A stretch of 48,402 bases of DNA. Source: SAR86 cluster bacterium (lineage in GTDB: Bacteria; Pseudomonadota; Gammaproteobacteria; Magnimaribacterales; TMED112). Below, one piece after another: positions 23,225 through 32,214 of the stretch. The notes under the pieces were generated by a model. That model searched no databases and was not told where the DNA came from. It saw only the letters and a program-made list of their open reading frames with translations. The stretch spans positions 1-48,402 of the forward strand of contig JADHNL010000007.1 in the NCBI GenBank assembly GCA_016779525.1, read 5' to 3'. The first letter of the stretch is position 1; each line of letters opens with the position of its first letter. Position numbers and translations under genes: made by a program.

Positions 23225-24430
23225 ATGTATCAAACCAAAACAGAAAAAAACTACCTTTGGATCTTTTTTACCATGTTCAGCATTGGTCTGGGGCAGTCCT
23301 TAGTCTTCACCTCCATACCTATTTTTGCTCGAGAAAGTGGATTAAACGAAGTTGAAGTTTCTCTGATTTTTGGCATATCGGCTTTTGCGTGGTTCTTTAC
23401 ATCACCTTTATGGGGAAGGTACAGTGAAAAACTAGGATCCCATACGGTGGGGGTAATAGGGTCTATTGGATATTCAGCCAATATGATTCTAATCATTTTG
23501 CCTCTTTTTTTATTTGAGAAAGGCTACATAACTAGCACTTTCTTGCTTCCAGCTTTAATTGCTTCGCGTTTGGTCTACGGCATATTTGGTTCCGCTACAA
23601 GGCCAGCATTGTTTGGTTTTTCAGGAAAAATATCATCGCCTGAGAAAAGAGCAGCCGTTTTTTCTAATCTTGAATCAGGATTTGTGCTTGGTACTGTATT
23701 GGGCCCTTTAATTGGAGCGTTTTTGTTTCGTTATACCAATAATGAGTTGCCTTTCATATTGTTTGGCGCCATTGGTTTGTTGGTTGCATTTCAATTAAGT
23801 AATCGACTAAGAAATATCCCTGAAGCAAAAGCAAGCATCGAAAGACCCAGCAGACTAAAGATATTAGATAGAAAGGTGTGGCCTTTTGTCTTTGTATCTT
23901 CTCTTGCAAGCATAGCCCAAGCAATAATCTTCCAAACAATGGGTTTTTATATATACGATAAGCTGGGCTACAGCGCACAAGAAGCTGCCATATATGTAAG
24001 CATTTGTTTTGGAATATGGTCGGTTTCTGTGGTTGTAACCCAATCCCTGATAAATCCTTTGTTTCAGTCGCTGAAAGTTATGATGATTCTTGGTCCGATA
24101 TTAAGCTCATTATCGTTCATAGCTTTAATCTTTTCTGACGAAATCTTTGCTCTCATGGGTACATTAATACTGAATGGTGTCGGGTTAGGAGTAACTCGTC
24201 CGAGCTACAATTCAGCATTGTCATTAAGCCATGATAAAAAATTTCAAAGCTCTGCAGCAGGAATGATGGGAAGCACTTTACCCATAGGTCACATGGCTGC
24301 TCCGCTCCTCATTGGCCTGTATTTATTGGATTCTGCATATTTGTATTTATTATCGGCTGTTATTTCATTGCTTGCTGTTGGATTTACCCTTCTGCACCCG
24401 TATATACTAAAGTCAGATGCATACAAATAG
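23225..24430 (+). CDS. MFS transporter, probable drug or metabolite exporter
   Basis: A 401-residue major facilitator superfamily protein with about twelve membrane helices. The loop between helices 2 and 3 has the MFS signature in the form GRYSEKLGSHTVGVIG, and helix 5 shows the GPLIGAFLF pattern of drug:H+ antiporters (TetA-like). The substrate is unknown. It starts three bases after trpS and overlaps hemH by 14 bases, so a role in haem or tetrapyrrole traffic is possible but only suggested by position. Confidence 0.88.
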   Translation: MYQTKTEKNYLWIFFTMFSIGLGQSLVFTSIPIFARESGLNEVEVSLIFGISAFAWFFTSPLWGRYSEKLGSHTVGVIGSIGYSANMILIILPLFLFEKGYITSTFLLPALIASRLVYGIFGSATRPALFGFSGKISSPEKRAAVFSNLESGFVLGTVLGPLIGAFLFRYTNNELPFILFGAIGLLVAFQLSNRLRNIPEAKASIERPSRLKILDRKVWPFVFVSSLASIAQAIIFQTMGFYIYDKLGYSAQEAAIYVSICFGIWSVSVVVTQSLINPLFQSLKVMMILGPILSSLSFIALIFSDEIFALMGTLILNGVGLGVTRPSYNSALSLSHDKKFQSSAAGMMGSTLPIGHMAAPLLIGLYLLDSAYLYLLSAVISLLAVGFTLLHPYILKSDAYK

Positions 24431-25433
24431 AAAAGCACTTTTACTTATTTCTCTAGGCACACCAGATTCTCCAAACTTCATTGATGTTGGGAAATACCTG
24501 AGTGAGTTTCTGATGGACAGTAGGATGATAAGAGTGCCATGGTTGCTTAGGTTTATATTGGTAAATCTCATTATTGTTCCGACAAGATCCTTTTCATCCT
24601 CAAAGGCATATAAAGAGCTCTGGACTGAAAGAGGGTCTCCATTGAAATACCACATAGAAGATTTAACCAAGAAGGTGGGTGCAAAACTCAGCGATTCCCA
24701 CGATGTTTATTATGCCATGCGGTATAAAAACCCTTCTTTAGATTCTGTGTTGGCTGAAATATACCATAAACGATATGAAGAGATTGTTCTGTTTCCAATT
24801 TTTCCACAATATTCCTCAGCAGCTAATGGATCATTTCTAGAAAAAGCTCAAAAAATTATTGCGCAATGGAATGTGATTCCAAGGATCTCAACCATTGACC
24901 AGTTTTACAATAGACAAGATTTTATTGATGCATTTACTAAAAATATTCTGAAATTTGATTTGAATGAATTTGAAAAAATCATCTTCAGCTACCATGGTTT
25001 GCCGATGAGTCAGCTTGATCAAGTGTATGCAGAAGGCAAATGCGATGACAGAAATTGCCACGAAGGCGTTCACGGTGACAACCATTATTGCTATAAGGCT
25101 ACTTGCTATGAGACAACAAAATTGCTTATTGAGAATGCAAAAATAAATAGCGAGAAAACGATAACTGCATTTCAATCAAGACTTGATTCAGGTTGGGTTA
25201 AACCTTTCTCTGATGAGGTCATAAAAAAATATGCTCAGGAGGGCGTTAAAAAAATACTTGTAGTCTCGCCATCATTTACCACAGACTGTTTGGAAACAAT
25301 TGTTGAAATTGGTAGTGAATACCAGGAACTCTTTGAGGAGCATGGCGGTCAAAGACTTGATTACGTTCCTTCTCTCAATTCCGACGATAATTGGGTAGAA
25401 TGTATTGTGAATATGGCAAGGGAGAAACAATGA
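24417..25433 (+). CDS. hemH: Ferrochelatase
   Basis: A 338-residue ferrochelatase, inserting Fe2+ into protoporphyrin IX in the last step of protohaem synthesis. Motifs: LLISLGTPDSPNFIDVGKYL at the N-terminus, LFPIFPQYSSA with the start of the active-site region, IIFSYHGLP with the catalytic His, and VVSPSFTTDCLETIVEIG with the conserved Glu near the end. Between about residues 208 and 234 four cysteines (CDDRNC and CYKATC) could hold an iron-sulfur cluster, as known in some bacterial ferrochelatases. It is overlapped by the MFS gene upstream and shares ATGA with the aldehyde dehydrogenase gene downstream. Confidence 0.95.
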   Translation: MHTNRKALLLISLGTPDSPNFIDVGKYLSEFLMDSRMIRVPWLLRFILVNLIIVPTRSFSSSKAYKELWTERGSPLKYHIEDLTKKVGAKLSDSHDVYYAMRYKNPSLDSVLAEIYHKRYEEIVLFPIFPQYSSAANGSFLEKAQKIIAQWNVIPRISTIDQFYNRQDFIDAFTKNILKFDLNEFEKIIFSYHGLPMSQLDQVYAEGKCDDRNCHEGVHGDNHYCYKATCYETTKLLIENAKINSEKTITAFQSRLDSGWVKPFSDEVIKKYAQEGVKKILVVSPSFTTDCLETIVEIGSEYQELFEEHGGQRLDYVPSLNSDDNWVECIVNMAREKQ

Positions 25434-26821
25434 AAGACATACTAGATTTACAGAAAGCAGCCTACATCAAAGAAGGTGTTCCAACCTATCACCAAAGGGC
25501 AGACAGATTAAATAGGTGTATAGCCTTAATTGAAACCCACGATGACCAAATCATTGAAGCCTTAAATGAAGATTACAAAAACAGATCCAAGCATGAAATT
25601 ATGACTTCTGAGATTGTGCAATCTGTAAGAAATCTAAATTTCACACTTAAAAATTTGAAGAAGTGGATGAAGCCTCAGCATCGCACCCCATCATTTGGAG
25701 CTGGATTAATGGGTGCTAAAAGCATGATGGTGCCATCACCACTTGGTTCGGTGGGTGTTATTGCTCCTTGGAACTTTCCAATTGGGATGGTGTTTTATCC
25801 AGCTGCATCCATTTTTGCTGCAGGAAATAGAATTATGGCTAAGCCGTCAGAATTTACTCCAAAAACGTCAGAGCTAATGAAAGAGGCAGTAGGGAAATAT
25901 TTTGATGAAAGTGAATTTGCAGTTATCTTGGGAGGTCCTGAAATAGGGGCTGAATTTTCTGGCTTACCTTTTGATCATCTGCTTTACACTGGGAGCGGAA
26001 GGATTGCGAGAAAAGTTTTAGCTAAAGCAGCCGAGAATATTGTGCCAACTACCATGGAGTTAGGAGGCAAAAGCCCAACCATTATTTCTGATAATGTTGA
26101 CATCGATATGGTGGCCAAACGAATCATGTTTGTAAAAACATTGAATTCCGGTCAAATATGCCTTTCCCCAGATTACATCATGGTTAAAAGAGGGATGGAG
26201 CAACAGTTAGTTGTGGCACTTGATGAGACATTTAATAGCTTTTATGAAGGCAATGAAAAAGATTACACTTCCATGGTTAATTCCAATCACTTCAACCGCA
26301 TGAATGGGTATGTCGAAGATGCAGTGGCAAAAGGTGCAGAATTAATAAATCTTGGCAATGTCGATGATGCATCCAAAGATACCATTGGTACTAAAATCTT
26401 GCTAAACGTCAATGACAATATGCAAGTCATGCAAGATGAGATTTTTGGCCCTGTTTTTCCAATTATGTTGTATGACGAGCTTTCTGAGGCGGTAGATTAT
26501 GTCAATAAACACGATCACCCATTAGGTCTGTATTTCTTTAGTGACGACAAGAAGGAACAAGAATATGTGATAAATAACACACGGTCAGGCGGAGTAACAA
26601 TCAATGATACTATGTTTCATTTAATGCAATCACAGTTACCATTCGGGGGAGTTGGGCCATCTGGTTTTGGTTGCTACCATGGCTATGAGGGTTTCTTAAA
26701 CTTTTCGAATTTAAGATCTGTGTACTACCAAACAAAAATAGACTCACTTTTCGCAATGATGAGACCTCCGAGAGGCAAACTCTTAGAACAGATGTCTAAA
26801 GTGATGAAAAAATTATCTTGA
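25430..26821 (+). CDS. Coniferyl-type aldehyde dehydrogenase
   Basis: A 463-residue NAD(P)-dependent aldehyde dehydrogenase. Catalytic features are the Asn of VIAPWNFPIG, the Glu of MELGGKSP and the Cys of LNSGQICLSPDYIM. The last motif, with Cys followed by LSPDY, and the overall length are those of the coniferyl-aldehyde dehydrogenase group and related fatty aldehyde enzymes. The C-terminus has a hydrophobic-basic tail (LFAMMRPPRGKLLEQM) that might touch membranes. The start at 25430 makes an ATGA overlap with hemH; the frame extends 39 bases further up but into hemH. Natural substrate unknown. Confidence 0.92.
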   Translation: MKDILDLQKAAYIKEGVPTYHQRADRLNRCIALIETHDDQIIEALNEDYKNRSKHEIMTSEIVQSVRNLNFTLKNLKKWMKPQHRTPSFGAGLMGAKSMMVPSPLGSVGVIAPWNFPIGMVFYPAASIFAAGNRIMAKPSEFTPKTSELMKEAVGKYFDESEFAVILGGPEIGAEFSGLPFDHLLYTGSGRIARKVLAKAAENIVPTTMELGGKSPTIISDNVDIDMVAKRIMFVKTLNSGQICLSPDYIMVKRGMEQQLVVALDETFNSFYEGNEKDYTSMVNSNHFNRMNGYVEDAVAKGAELINLGNVDDASKDTIGTKILLNVNDNMQVMQDEIFGPVFPIMLYDELSEAVDYVNKHDHPLGLYFFSDDKKEQEYVINNTRSGGVTINDTMFHLMQSQLPFGGVGPSGFGCYHGYEGFLNFSNLRSVYYQTKIDSLFAMMRPPRGKLLEQMSKVMKKLS

Positions 26822-28038
26822 TAGATTTCATTTCAAAGCTTTCTATTAGCTATCTTTTTAAACCTGGGACTAAACGCCTTTCGGTTCTAACAGTTTTTAC
26901 TTCATTAGGAATAGCTATTGGTACCGCTGTCGTAATAATTGTCATTTCGGTAATGAATGGTTTTCAGGACGAACTAAGAACTCGAATTTTAGGGGCCATT
27001 CCTCAACTTACTTTTGAAAAACCCGGAGGATTCAATGATATTGATCGGGTTAAAACAATTGTAAATCAAAATTCAAATGTTGTTGATTCACAAGAGTTTT
27101 TTATGACTCAATCAATACTTTCAAGTTCTGATATAACCAGAGGAGTCATGGTTAAGGGCACCAATGAAAATGAAATATCAATCATTGCTGACAGCATAAT
27201 AGAGGGTAATTTAGATGAATTGGATGCTAGCAACAATATTATCTTAGGTGATGCGCTGGCATTCGAGCTTGGCACCTTGCCCGGCGATACTGTTTCAATG
27301 GTGATCTCCAATCAGATGAATCCACTTGCAAACATACCAAGAGTAATAAGCTTTAAAGTTTCAGGGTTATTTTCAGTTGGTTCTGAAATAGATCAGAACT
27401 ACGCCTTAATTGGTACAAATGCTTTCAGGAAAGCGTTTCGTCCCACAAATGGTGCGGGAATAGAATTACAACTTAGAAATGTATTTGCGACGGAACAAAC
27501 AGCCAATGAGGTCCTTGCAGACTTAGACTTAGACTACTACACCATTAAAGTCTCAAGCTGGGATCAGTCTTACGGCAGTTTATTTCGAGCAACGCAGCTT
27601 GAACGTACCATGGTTTCCCTTTTGATGTCTTTAATTCTTTTAATAGCTATCTTCAGTATGCTGATATCAATTAACAGCTTGGTTAAAGATAAGAGATCTG
27701 AAATTGCAATCCTTAGAACTATTGGTTACTCCAAATGGGATATTCAAAGGGTTTTTCTACAACTTATTGCCTTCATTGGTATTTTTGGTGTGGTTTTTGG
27801 AAATATCCTTGGAATTGGTTTCTCTAGTAATATCACTGAGTTTTTCCAGTTCTTAGCCTCTACTTTTGATATCTCTCTAATGAATACATATTACGTTGAC
27901 TACTTTCCATCTAGGGTTGAGTTTAGTGAAGTATTGCTCATCAACCTGTTAACACTGGTAATTTTATTTGTGTTTGGCTATATTCCAGCAAGAATTGCTG
28001 CCAATACTGAACCTGCAAAGATAATTAATCAAGAATGA
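26818..28038 (+). CDS. lolC: LolC/LolE-family lipoprotein-release ABC permease
   Basis: A 406-residue permease of the FtsX/MacB type. An N-terminal membrane helix (VFTSLGIAIGTAVVIIVISVMNGF), a periplasmic domain of about 220 residues, and three C-terminal helices (MSLILLIAIFSMLISINSL and two more) match LolC/LolE, which releases lipoproteins from the inner membrane to LolA. Only one permease gene is present beside lolD, so it may act as a LolF-type homodimer or have its partner elsewhere; the C/E assignment is therefore loose. It starts with TTG, overlapping the stop of the aldehyde dehydrogenase gene, and shares ATGA with lolD. Confidence 0.88.
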   Translation: MIDFISKLSISYLFKPGTKRLSVLTVFTSLGIAIGTAVVIIVISVMNGFQDELRTRILGAIPQLTFEKPGGFNDIDRVKTIVNQNSNVVDSQEFFMTQSILSSSDITRGVMVKGTNENEISIIADSIIEGNLDELDASNNIILGDALAFELGTLPGDTVSMVISNQMNPLANIPRVISFKVSGLFSVGSEIDQNYALIGTNAFRKAFRPTNGAGIELQLRNVFATEQTANEVLADLDLDYYTIKVSSWDQSYGSLFRATQLERTMVSLLMSLILLIAIFSMLISINSLVKDKRSEIAILRTIGYSKWDIQRVFLQLIAFIGIFGVVFGNILGIGFSSNITEFFQFLASTFDISLMNTYYVDYFPSRVEFSEVLLINLLTLVILFVFGYIPARIAANTEPAKIINQE

Positions 28039-28682
28039 TCGAACTAAATAAAGTCAGTAAATCTTATGGGCCTAAACACCAAAAACATACTGTATTAGAT
28101 AGAGTTTCTTTTACTTTTGAAAGCAATGGCACTTATGGTCTGGTTGGCCCATCAGGTTCGGGTAAAACAACTTTTTTAAACATTCTTTCAGGACTGGATT
28201 CATTTGATAATGGCTCAATCTTAGTCAACGGTACTGAAATAGCTAACTTAGGCCAGGATGAGCTTAGTAAATTAAGAAGAGATTATTTTTCTTTTGCCTA
28301 TCAGTTTCATTATTTATTGGAGAACCTAACTGTATATGAAAATTGTTTGGCATCCGATTTGTCAGCAAGCGAGAGTGACATAACAAACATTCTTGAAAAC
28401 CTTGGTATTGGTGAATTAACTCATAAATTTCCAAGTCAAATCTCTGGAGGTGAAAGGCAACGAGCTTCGCTTGCAAGAGCCTTAACAAAAAAACCCAAGA
28501 TCCTTTTATTGGATGAGCCAACAGGTAATCTTGATGAAAATAACAGTGCAGTTGTCCAAGAATTGCTTTTAAATTATACCAAACAGAATGACTGTTTAAT
28601 GATATATGTTACCCATGATCTCCCTTTTGCAGAAAGGGCTGATAAAATCCTAAGAATAGAAAACAAAAGCTTAAGTTTTTAA
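28035..28682 (+). CDS. lolD: Lipoprotein-release ABC transporter ATPase
   Basis: A 215-residue ATPase of the LolD type. It has Walker A GPSGSGKTTFLNILSGLD near residue 39, Q-loop region FAYQFHYLLENLTVYEN, ABC signature ISGGERQRASLARAL, Walker B ILLLDEPTGNLD and switch His in YVTHD. Powering by this subunit drives transfer of outer-membrane lipoproteins to LolA. It is coupled to the permease gene by a 4-base ATGA overlap. About 69 bases separate it from the msbA-lpxK gene. Confidence 0.93.
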   Translation: MIELNKVSKSYGPKHQKHTVLDRVSFTFESNGTYGLVGPSGSGKTTFLNILSGLDSFDNGSILVNGTEIANLGQDELSKLRRDYFSFAYQFHYLLENLTVYENCLASDLSASESDITNILENLGIGELTHKFPSQISGGERQRASLARALTKKPKILLLDEPTGNLDENNSAVVQELLLNYTKQNDCLMIYVTHDLPFAERADKILRIENKSLSF

Positions 28683-28751: not shown

Positions 28752-31490
28752 ATGAATAATTCCTTATACAAAAGGCTCCTTGGCTACACCTTCAAGCATA
28801 AAAGTCTTTTTGCCTTGAGCATTTTCGGTTTTTTATTGTTCGCTGTTGCTGATATTTCTGCAGTTGAGTGGCTCAAAAGAGTTATTGGTTATATCAATAA
28901 TAGTTCAGATGGCTTTCTAAATCCCTTAAACCTTGCTCTCTTTTTACTTGGTGTATCAATTTTAAGAGGTATCGGTTTCTACATCGGCAACTATTTTATG
29001 GCTAACGTTGGGTTAAAAGTTGTGCACAATCTGAGAGAAGATATTATAAGAAGCCTGCTGTACCAGCCCATGAGTTTTTTTGATCAAGCTTCTAAAGGCG
29101 AAATAGTAAATCGAATTATCTTTACCACCAATCAGATTACAGGTGCGGCCACCAATGCACTAAAAATACTCGTAAAAGAGGGGTTCTTACTCATTGGGTT
29201 ATTTGTCTATCTGCTTTATTTAAGCTGGAAACTAACAGTGGTCATAGTTTTGATTGCTCCTCTTATTGCCATAGTTGTTTCTTGGGCTGGAAAAAGACTA
29301 AGAAAGGTAGCAAAGAAAATACAGGACGTTATGGGTCAGATAACACAAGTGAGTAATGAAATTGCCAATGGGGCTCAAGAGATTAAATCTTTTTCAAATG
29401 AGGAGGCAGAGCAGAAAAGATTCAAAGATGCCAACGATGAGAACCTTCTGCAAAATTTAAAAATGGAAAGCACTTCAAACTTAGCAACTCCACTTATACA
29501 GATCTTTGTGGCACTTGCACTAGCATCAATGAGCTACTTGGCTCTGAGCAATCTTGAGGAGCTAAACTTGCCGTCTGAGTCTTTTGTAGCTTTTTTTACC
29601 GCTGCTGGTCTTATGGCACGTCCAATAAGACAGCTATCAAGCTTAAACGCTGTCATTCAAAAAGGTTTAGCAGCAGCAGAAGATATTTTTCAAAGCATGG
29701 ACAAGCAACCCGAAGATTATGAAAGTGGGATTGATTTATCTAAATCCTTAGAGGGCAGTGTCGAATTAAAAAACGTTAATTTTGCCTACAACGAAGATGG
29801 CGAAAATGTCTTAAACAATATCTCCTTAACTGTTGAAAAAGGTCAAACCATAGCTCTGGTTGGAAGGTCAGGCAGTGGTAAATCAACCATAGTCAACCTA
29901 CTTAATCGATTCTATGACAGTTACTCCGGTCAGATTACTATCGATGGATACGACATAAAGAAGATTAGGTTAAAAGATTTGCGGTCCTCAATATCCTTTG
30001 TTTCTCAAGACCCAACTCTCTTCAACGATACCGTAAGAAACAATATTGCCTATGGAAATGAAGATGTTACGGAAAATGCCATTTATCAAGCTGCTCGAGA
30101 AGCCAATGCTTATGAATTCATAATGAACCTGCCCGAAGGCTTTGATACAAAAATTGGAGACAATGGCATGCTTTTATCTGGTGGAGAAAAGCAACGAATA
30201 GCTATTGCAAGAGCTCTGCTTAAACAAGCATCTATACTCATTTTTGATGAAGCAACTTCCGCACTGGATAATGAATCGGAAAAAGACATTCAAAATGCCA
30301 TTGAAAAAGCTTCAAAAAATAAAACCACTTTTATCATTGCCCATAGATTGAGCACGGTGGAAAAGGCCGATAAGATTTGCGTTCTAGAAGATGGTGTTAT
30401 CACGCAAATAGGCACTCATGATGAACTAATTAAGGAAGAGGGCTTGTATAACTTGCTTCAGGGCAGTCCTGTCGTTGAAGAGGTAAAGCAAGAGGTTGTT
30501 AAAGAAGATACCTTCATTCCAACTAAAATTCCTGACGAAATTAGCTATTGGGACAAGTATGGCTTTGTCAATCTAGCCTTGCTGCCAGTGAGCTTTATCT
30601 ACTGGATAGGCAGCTCACTTAAAAATCTGTTTCGCAAACCTAAAAGATCAAACTCAAATGAAATACCTGTGGTTGTAGTTGGCAATCTGACTGTTGGAGG
30701 CAATGGCAAAACTCCCCTAGTCAACCAAATAGCATCGGATCTTTTAAATCTTGGTTATCACCCAGGAATAATATTACGTGGCTATGGTGGCAAGTTTGTA
30801 GGCACTAAACTAGTGAATGATTTAACCACAGCAAAAGAAGTTGGTGATGAAGCTTTATTCCACTTCAATCGTGGCTTCACTGTCGTTGTCGACAGAGATA
30901 GAGCCAGAGCTTTGTCTTTCTTGGAAAGAAATACTGAGTGTGACATAGTTGTTTCCGACGATGGACTCCAGCACAGCAATTTAAGAAGGGATTTTGAAAT
31001 TGTGGTCGAAGACTCCAAGAGGAATTTTGGAAACAGACTTTTCCTACCTTCTGGCCCTCTGAGAGACAATCTTGCAAAACTAAAAAACGTCGACCTTTTC
31101 ATGCATAGCGGCAGAGCCATTGCTAGCTCAAACTTTTTTGAACTTGAACCAGATTCATGGGTTCATTTAGCAAGTGGCAAGGAACTGCCGATAGAAGAAT
31201 ACCCATTTGGCAAAGTGGCAAATGTTGTTTGTGGGATAGCAAACCCTGCCAGATTTTTTGAAACTCTAAATGGATTAAAAATTAATTTTGAGCATAGGGC
31301 TTTCAAAGACCATCATTACTTTTCAAAAAAAGATTTAGATTTTGACTACACCAGACCAATTGTTATGACAGAAAAAGATGCTATGAGAGTCAAAGATAAG
31401 ATTGATTCTGACGGCATTTGGTACCTAAAAATGAAGGTAAAAATGAACATCAATCTATCAAAACTCATTGTTGAAAAATTAAATGGCTAG
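28752..31490 (+). CDS. msbA-lpxK: MsbA-LpxK fusion: lipid A flippase joined to tetraacyldisaccharide 4'-kinase
   Basis: One open frame of 912 residues. Residues about 1-575 are a full MsbA-type exporter: six membrane helices to about 310, Walker A VGRSGSGKST (370-379), signature LLSGGEKQR (474-482), Walker B ILIFDEATSALD (495-506) and switch His531. A short acidic linker follows. From about 597 to the end is a complete LpxK: its N-terminal membrane-associated segment (LALLPVSFIYWIGSSLKNLF), Walker A VVVGNLTVGGNGKTP (641-655), RGYGG, and DDGLQH (736-741) with the catalytic Asp. LpxK phosphorylates the lipid A precursor; MsbA flips the finished core-lipid A. In E. coli these are neighbouring separate genes. 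It overlaps kdsB by 8 bases. Confidence 0.93.
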   Translation: MNNSLYKRLLGYTFKHKSLFALSIFGFLLFAVADISAVEWLKRVIGYINNSSDGFLNPLNLALFLLGVSILRGIGFYIGNYFMANVGLKVVHNLREDIIRSLLYQPMSFFDQASKGEIVNRIIFTTNQITGAATNALKILVKEGFLLIGLFVYLLYLSWKLTVVIVLIAPLIAIVVSWAGKRLRKVAKKIQDVMGQITQVSNEIANGAQEIKSFSNEEAEQKRFKDANDENLLQNLKMESTSNLATPLIQIFVALALASMSYLALSNLEELNLPSESFVAFFTAAGLMARPIRQLSSLNAVIQKGLAAAEDIFQSMDKQPEDYESGIDLSKSLEGSVELKNVNFAYNEDGENVLNNISLTVEKGQTIALVGRSGSGKSTIVNLLNRFYDSYSGQITIDGYDIKKIRLKDLRSSISFVSQDPTLFNDTVRNNIAYGNEDVTENAIYQAAREANAYEFIMNLPEGFDTKIGDNGMLLSGGEKQRIAIARALLKQASILIFDEATSALDNESEKDIQNAIEKASKNKTTFIIAHRLSTVEKADKICVLEDGVITQIGTHDELIKEEGLYNLLQGSPVVEEVKQEVVKEDTFIPTKIPDEISYWDKYGFVNLALLPVSFIYWIGSSLKNLFRKPKRSNSNEIPVVVVGNLTVGGNGKTPLVNQIASDLLNLGYHPGIILRGYGGKFVGTKLVNDLTTAKEVGDEALFHFNRGFTVVVDRDRARALSFLERNTECDIVVSDDGLQHSNLRRDFEIVVEDSKRNFGNRLFLPSGPLRDNLAKLKNVDLFMHSGRAIASSNFFELEPDSWVHLASGKELPIEEYPFGKVANVVCGIANPARFFETLNGLKINFEHRAFKDHHYFSKKDLDFDYTRPIVMTEKDAMRVKDKIDSDGIWYLKMKVKMNINLSKLIVEKLNG

Positions 31491-32214
31491 GAGCTTTTCT
31501 ATTGTTATTCCTGCAAGGCTGGCGTCTACAAGGTTGCCAGAAAAGTTGTTAAAAGTGGTTAAAGGTAAACCTTTGATTCAATGGACTTGGGAAAATGCTT
31601 TAAAAACCAAAGCTGCAAATGTAACCGTAGTTACCGATTCAAAAGAAATTTTTACTGCGATCCATAGCAAAGGTGGCCAGAGCTTTATGACTGCAGAACA
31701 TCATGAAACCGGCACCGATAGAATTAATGAATACATTACCGAAGCAAACCTTTCAGATGATGAGCTTATTATAAACTTGCAGGGCGATGAGCCCTTACTA
31801 AGCCCAGATCTGGTAAACGATTTGGCAGATTTTATGATCGATAATAACTTTAATTTCTCAACCCTTTGCAAACCATTTGAGAGCGATGAAGAGCTTAAAG
31901 ATATAAACAAGGTCAAAGTACAGTTATCTGAAGATCAGAAGGCAGTAGCATTCTCCAGAGAGCCGCTAGGAAACCTATCAGTCAAACAAAACTTTCATCA
32001 CATTGGGGTATATGGATATTCTGCTGGTATGCTCACATATTTTGCCGGGCTTGAGCAAACAAAAAACGAAAAAAGAGAGAAACTTGAGCAATTAAGGGCT
32101 CTTGATAACAACCTTGATATACATGTTTTAAAAATCGACGAATGTCGCTCATTTGGCATTGATACCCTAGAGGATCTAAATAAGTTTGAGGGATTGTTGA
32201 CAAATGAAAACTGA
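31483..32214 (+). CDS. kdsB: 3-deoxy-manno-octulosonate cytidylyltransferase
   Basis: A 243-residue CMP-Kdo synthetase that activates Kdo for attachment to lipid A. Evidence: the nucleotide-binding start FSIVIPARLASTRLPEKLL, GTDRINE, NLQGDEPLL, and HIGVYGYSAGML, all typical of KdsB. It overlaps the msbA-lpxK fusion upstream by 8 bases and murB downstream by 11, so the three envelope genes are probably co-translated. Confidence 0.96.
   Translation: MARSFSIVIPARLASTRLPEKLLKVVKGKPLIQWTWENALKTKAANVTVVTDSKEIFTAIHSKGGQSFMTAEHHETGTDRINEYITEANLSDDELIINLQGDEPLLSPDLVNDLADFMIDNNFNFSTLCKPFESDEELKDINKVKVQLSEDQKAVAFSREPLGNLSVKQNFHHIGVYGYSAGMLTYFAGLEQTKNEKREKLEQLRALDNNLDIHVLKIDECRSFGIDTLEDLNKFEGLLTNEN

Follow-up and report, generated by a model that had tools for sequence, protein, structure and literature searches.

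The gene at 28752..31490 on the forward strand of the window (the whole 48,402-nucleotide stretch of SAR86 DNA analysed here) joins an MsbA half and an LpxK half in one open reading frame, and the joined form is kept across the SAR86 order. The novelty is the joining; both enzymes and their neighbours are already known. What is the biological function of a kinase that is covalently attached to a lipid A flippase? We propose that the product is probably a flippase bearing its own tethered kinase, by which lipid IVA, the product of LpxK, would be made beside the exporter and in a fixed one-to-one ratio to it. The covalent link is retained throughout an order of bacteria that are abundant in the ocean and recurs in other lineages, which indicates that LpxK is able to live permanently at the flippase.

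In E. coli K-12, the same two proteins are encoded in the same order by the msbA–lpxK operon (b0914–b0915), with kdsB three genes further, and the aligned parts share 42% (MsbA) and 35% (LpxK) identity with the window protein. Unlike the fusion, the E. coli operon consists of two genes that overlap by 4 bp in different frames and give rise to two proteins without a spacer. The preliminary description of the window regarded adjacent but separate genes as the known arrangement. This holds for E. coli, but the fused form is already present many times in public collections, where the proteins, if named, are usually called MsbA alone. Among the open-licence papers listed by our searches, no title or abstract opening describes an MsbA–LpxK fusion. 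The available portion of the SAR86 isolate paper (PMC11582366) contains no mention of MsbA, fusion or fused, and lpx and lipid A are absent from the main text, as far as available, of a gene fusion survey (PMC4921024).

Two halves in one frame

The fused frame runs from ATG to TAG through 912 codons with no internal stop in its translation, and all of the features described below lie on the forward strand. MsbA constitutes the first 570 residues and LpxK the final ~310. The MsbA half contains the transmembrane domain (ABC_membrane, PF00664, 161 bits; residues 22–289, 28815..29618) and the nucleotide-binding domain (ABC_tran, PF00005, 124 bits; residues 354–503, 29811..30260). It scores above the cut-off of the NCBIfam equivalog TIGR02203 (630.5 versus 602 bits) and below that of a second equivalog, NF008381 (PRK11176; 543.3 versus 867 bits), which we assume to be a narrower model than TIGR02203. 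The modelled MsbA fold finds PaMsbA (9bd6) as its top Foldseek match, with a TM-score of 0.86 by target and 43% identity. The LpxK half (residues 608–910, 30573..31481) passes both PF02606 (270.2 bits versus a cut-off of 27) and TIGR00682 (198.4 versus 91.95 bits), and it includes the P-loop GGNGKT (residues 649–654, 30696..30713) and the DDGLQH motif (residues 736–741, 30957..30974). The claim of a single frame for MsbA and a complete LpxK, the latter with its own N-terminal membrane segment, Walker A loop and DDGLQH, is thus borne out by the open frame, the curated cut-offs, both kinase motifs and a modelled helix at residues 604–627. The proposed end of MsbA at about residue 575 also agrees with the last conserved MsbA residues, near position 569. 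The source genome (827 kb in 24 contigs, 74.5% estimated completeness) contains LpxK once, as the fused copy, and the nearest named relative, the SAR86 cluster bacterium MED-G83, is 97% identical across the LpxK part.

Both halves retain the residues expected of active enzymes. The MsbA Walker A, Q-loop, signature, Walker B and H-loop motifs (G371, G376, K377, Q419, S476–G478, D499, E500 and H531) are present in all 58 fused proteins aligned, as are K653, D699, E700, R717, D736, D737, H741, H854 and K875 of LpxK; R676 is found in 57 of the 58, and position 654 is T or S in every one. Aquifex aeolicus LpxK (PDB 4ehw, 4ehx, 4itl and others) aligns to window residues 608–905 with an E value of 4e-20, but it is a separate protein. 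In the Aquifex enzyme, the available text of one review assigns proven importance to K51, T52, D99, E100, D138, D139 and H261 and lipid contacts to R72, R119 and H143 (PMC6286764). All ten are matched in the window protein, and their counterparts are conserved in 57–58 of the 58 fused proteins, with T52 as T or S. Of four additional residues that contact nucleotide or lipid in Aquifex, E117, Y187 and Q240 are unmatched in this distant alignment and R206 falls in a gap; most of 27 separate LpxK proteins from Gammaproteobacteria likewise lack a match in the E117, Y187 and Q240 columns. Thus, sequence conservation predicts that the fused halves are a complete lipid A flippase and a complete tetraacyldisaccharide 4'-kinase.

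Distribution of the fusion

The survey of the SAR86 order covered 203 genomes from 4 families and 22 genera, and an LpxK match was obtained in 158. By hand count, one frame of 892–966 aa is present in 150 of these 158 genomes (146 of the 150 in the main listing and 4 examined separately), as judged for most of them from frame length alone. Where loci were checked by sequence, both halves lie in one frame in all SAR86 cases except L022, which is cut. The remaining eight genomes comprise six that are cut by contig ends (G123, G142, G032, G060, G196 and G127) and two with frames broken throughout the gene (G084 and G029). In G123, G142, G084 and G060 the frame is still open over the junction, and the other four do not show the junction. 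No intact separate msbA/lpxK pair was found among the 158 LpxK-bearing genomes, and the junctions of close relatives contained no stop or frameshift, the expected mark of an artefact. As sampled, the 45 genomes that lack an LpxK match are of little information on the fusion: among 12 examined, the MsbA half was found in three, two of which meet a contig start and the third of which is G073, and the best match in the other nine was no stronger than E 1e-73. A protein search with the whole frame gave at least 120 listed matches, all of 819–915 aa and all with LpxK, ABC_tran and ABC_membrane, so that the single frames with these three domains that the preliminary description proposed to seek in related genomes do exist. 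In 15 of 15 SAR86 genomes tested, exactly one MsbA exceeds the TIGR02203 cut-off, and it is the fused one.

The fusion also occurs outside SAR86. A class-wide draw comprised 369 gammaproteobacterial genomes, 4 from the SAR86 order and 365 others, and was read from best rows only, in which a divergent fusion could hide. At least 7 of the 365 non-SAR86 genomes carry the fusion (G287, G266, G560, G465, G247, G380 and G395), all confirmed as a single frame. All opened class-draw rows that span both genes and contain stops proved to be separate pairs, with G311 and G505 judged by the lengths of their LpxK frames; the stop-bearing rows opened last were separate pairs in 13 of 13 cases, of which 10 belonged to the class draw and the other 3 to the phylum draw. 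The small order to which G287 belongs has three fused genomes and one separate among four. When proteins of about 530–1680 aa were searched with the kinase half of the G287 fusion, 2320 of 7996 scored candidates matched; among the 120 matches listed, LpxK and ABC_tran occur together in all and ABC_membrane is also present in 116. A phylum draw of 398 genomes, run at a threshold of E 1e-200 that would miss a divergent fusion, for example in Alphaproteobacteria, returned 109 matches, all in the same class, and among its 15 spanning rows only G000 and G287 are fused. Like the window protein, the other gammaproteobacterial fusions (the coded families f89, f68, f157, f49, f166 and f63, and proteins named from Candidatus Azotimanducaceae and others) place MsbA before LpxK with a spacer between them. 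They differ from it in having their own spacer length and motif, and the tree sets these six coded families apart from SAR86.

The tree was built from 58 rows, 31 fused and 27 separate, after P0140 was dropped as a probable copy of L117. The SAR86 rows form a single group, which also takes in P0174, beside Azotimanducaceae-like fusions, at a support of 81, which is not strong. The f89-like, f157, f166 (with f63), f68 and f49 fusions are placed elsewhere, and f68 (L072) joins a separate pair at 99. A single clade of all fused rows is rejected (p-AU 3e-44), as is a clade of SAR86, Azotimanducaceae-like and f89 fusions (p 0.005, for a grouping named after the tree was seen). The fused or separate state requires four changes on the tree, three of them being forced by well-supported branches, a count that does not distinguish fusion from fission. 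Repeated fusion is likelier than fission, given that separate genes are far commoner in the class draw.

Two loci call for comment. G566, the third candidate fusion at class level, was rejected because its msbA is a separate gene, overlain by a frame that is open by chance in GC-rich DNA; the locus was kept in the tree as a separate pair. The fused gene of L072 (G266) has N at three positions, which we read as missing letters: two fall in the spacer and the third in a codon of the kinase P-loop.

The junction between flippase and kinase

The MsbA half is followed by a spacer at residues 570–587 (30459..30512), of which residues 574–587 are variable and which is predicted to be flexible from entropy, pLDDT and pN/pS. 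Next comes a conserved junction motif, F-[VI]-P-T-x-I, at residues 588–593 (30513..30530), which precedes the invariant W600. The N-terminal membrane helix of LpxK occupies residues 604–627 (30561..30632), as identified from model secondary structure, alignment and comparison with separate LpxK proteins, and its P612 is invariant in 58 fused proteins. A profile of 120 proteins of the window's kind, the window protein included (~14 effective sequences), gives an entropy of 0.9–3.4 bits over residues 574–587 and weighted frequencies of 0.93 for F588, 1.0 for P, 0.93 for T and 0.86 for I593, with W600 conserved. The 23 f89-like fusions also have a variable spacer, followed by another conserved short stretch about N-F-L, and 72 further fusions exhibit a weak junction signal with a proline-rich spot. 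In the AlphaFold2 model (mean pLDDT 80, pTM 0.53), residues 572–586 and 502–504 fall below a pLDDT of 50, and one helix spans residues 604–627; a model with this pTM settles no domain placement. The resulting picture is a flippase, a loose spacer, a short motif, a membrane helix and a kinase.

The spacer is 29–30 residues long in the 120 proteins of the window's kind, and its median length is 47 residues in a second set (23 proteins) and 44 in a third (85 proteins). The third set still includes the apparently frameshifted P0230, which was excluded from the alignments and from the linker profile. In 23 separate pairs with exactly one in-frame stop, simple loss of that stop would leave a median spacer of 23 residues, although the separate pairs compared are a biased sample, being same-frame only and drawn by a stop-read-through search. 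The long spacers of the fused proteins would fit a tether that has to climb up to the membrane again from the nucleotide-binding domain, which lies at a distance from it.

The LpxK helix is, by sequence measures, similar in fused and separate proteins: its best 19-residue Kyte–Doolittle mean is 1.22 in fused (19 rows) and 1.48 in separate (34 rows) proteins, its moment is 0.38 and 0.39, and the charge after it is +4.8 and +3.9, respectively. The ATPase domain and the kinase both need cytoplasmic ATP and have one helix between them, and therefore this helix should not cross the membrane. Such a topology agrees with the amphipathic reading of LpxK, whose N-terminal helix is described as amphipathic and needed for activity in the available text of PMC6286764. 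The fusion thus supplies a test of LpxK topology, an in-plane versus a spanning helix, and also a ready one-chain object for cryo-EM.

Codon changes indicate selection on both halves. Across 66 pairs from 12 loci near the window's gene, pN/pS is 0.13 for MsbA, 0.69 for spacer residues 574–587, 0.26 for residues 588–600, 0.29 for the helix and 0.21 for the kinase, a pattern that indicates purifying constraint in a single frame before and after the junction, with relaxation in the spacer alone. A separately started LpxK is unlikely from the sequences. Among 28 fused loci tried, 5 gave no anchor and 23 were readable; the spacer and helix lack an in-frame ATG, GTG or TTG in 6 of the 23, and the other 17 have start codons at no common position, with a Shine–Dalgarno-like match in one. 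The absence of a start codon common to the readable loci led us to reject an internal start. The window gene has two weak candidates (TTG and GTG) within the helix, without a Shine–Dalgarno-like match. Between 27900 and 31700, promoter-like sites are as frequent as in shuffled sequence (9 versus 9.4), and no terminator-like site was found.

Function of the tether and genomic context

MsbA is known as a homodimer. The MsbA part of the fusion would dimerise as usual and carry two kinases, so the two kinase domains per dimer that were anticipated at the outset are supported by inference. Each kinase would hang off the nucleotide-binding-domain end by a spacer of ~30 residues that returns to the membrane, and its N-terminal helix would sit in the cytoplasmic leaflet. 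Before MsbA flips the lipid, WaaA and LpxL would add Kdo and further acyl chains to it, probably in the same vicinity; the later enzymes may join at the same membrane patch. The benefit would be one of location and stoichiometry, with no direct channel from kinase to pump.

The main rival to a tethered kinase is a near-neutral loss of the stop between tightly adjacent, co-translated genes, without functional gain and fixed through drift in a small genome, a reading that we consider possible but clearly less probable. The E. coli genes overlap by 4 bp and are co-transcribed, according to the available text of PMC10328246, and in a biased draw exactly one in-frame stop lies between the genes in 23 of 32 separate same-frame msbA/lpxK pairs (L086–L111 and L131–L139), a ready route to fusion. 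However, no intact separate pair was seen among 158 LpxK-bearing genomes of the order, of which 150 are clearly fused, and fusion recurs in other lineages. In addition, the spacers exceed the length produced by plain stop loss and contain a short conserved stretch in two of the three sets. If the kinase is tethered as we propose, the tether may still be without effect on flux.

A more ambitious version is a synthesis–export machine that evolved more than once, in which the kinase domains are carried by the nucleotide-binding domains, so that ATP turnover by the flippase gates the place and time of phosphorylation of the lipid A disaccharide, and in which the tether replaces the LapB scaffold in streamlined ocean bacteria; we regard this as speculative and rather doubtful. 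LapB, as described in the available text of PMC8745692, is proposed to gather LPS enzymes in E. coli and to couple synthesis to export, but it is a separate TPR protein.

Post-translational cleavage into separate MsbA and LpxK proteins is unlikely. The variable, predicted-disordered spacer could serve as a protease site, but the junction motif is conserved and the spacer is held to 29–30 residues in 120 proteins.

Slightly less likely still is strict channelling, in which the product of LpxK would enter the MsbA cavity directly, within one molecule. The covalent link would favour it, as would the export of lipid IVA-type molecules by E. coli in special conditions (PMC8151780, in part). In E. 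coli, LpxK is followed by WaaA, LpxL, LpxM and the core enzymes before MsbA acts, and MsbA is less effective on early intermediates, as stated in the available portions of PMC12444477 and PMC6286764 for the order and of PMC6286764 and PMC8745692 for the preference. An absence of WaaA or LpxL would favour direct hand-over, but WaaA-type genes and at least one LpxL-type gene (two in 13 genomes and one in 2) are present in 15 of 15 SAR86 genomes, picked mainly for contiguity. With these genes in all 15 genomes and one MsbA above the cut-off in each, one-step hand-over is unlikely. The direct hand-over suggested in the preliminary description is thereby weakened, also by the location of kdsB (31483..32214; TIGR00466, 191.8 bits versus a cut-off of 155.2), which lies directly downstream and shares 8 nt with the 3' end of the fused gene. 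With E. coli as a guide, further steps would lie between formation of the kinase product and its uptake by the pump to which the kinase is attached. Given that those steps precede MsbA in E. coli and that the enzymes are present here, the benefit of closeness is also weakened.

An assembly or binning artefact has a negligible probability: the named relatives are largely MAGs and single-cell genomes, but independent assemblies from many species agree on the same open frame, including the single-contig genomes G191, G195, G177, G093, G089 and G006.

For the tethered kinase, a role in control can be envisaged. The available text of PMC8745692 ties the LpxK step of E. coli to pathway balance through lpxK overexpression and LapB-dependent control of LpxC. 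Thus, a fixed proportion of LpxK to export capacity could plausibly serve to control the pathway. Partial texts also report that pre-LpxK intermediates are toxic upon LpxK depletion in Acinetobacter (PMC12444477) and that metabolic genes are usually fused for reasons of bottlenecks, toxicity and complex assembly (PMC4921024).

The fused gene is flanked by a LolC/E-type permease gene and lolD upstream and by kdsB and murB downstream. The frame of lolD (28035..28682) has LolD TIGR02211 as its best NCBIfam match (191.5 bits, below the cut-off of 307.75), and both lolD and kdsB occupy the same positions in relatives. Among ten SAR86 loci, six have the full order lolC, lolD, fusion, kdsB and murB, and two begin too near the fusion for lolD to be seen; the other two, L095 and L097, have ~1 kb between lolD and the fused gene. 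Within 26818–28682, a single FtsX-type permease gene precedes lolD, and SAR86 may use one LolF-like permease; in E. coli, lolC and lolE flank lolD. Further upstream, a ferrochelatase frame (24417–25433) and an aldehyde dehydrogenase frame (25391–26821, TTG) overlap by ~40 bases, and the TTG start may be placed too far upstream. In this small genome, 8864–11866 on the reverse strand encodes a hybrid histidine kinase of 1000 residues with response regulator domains.
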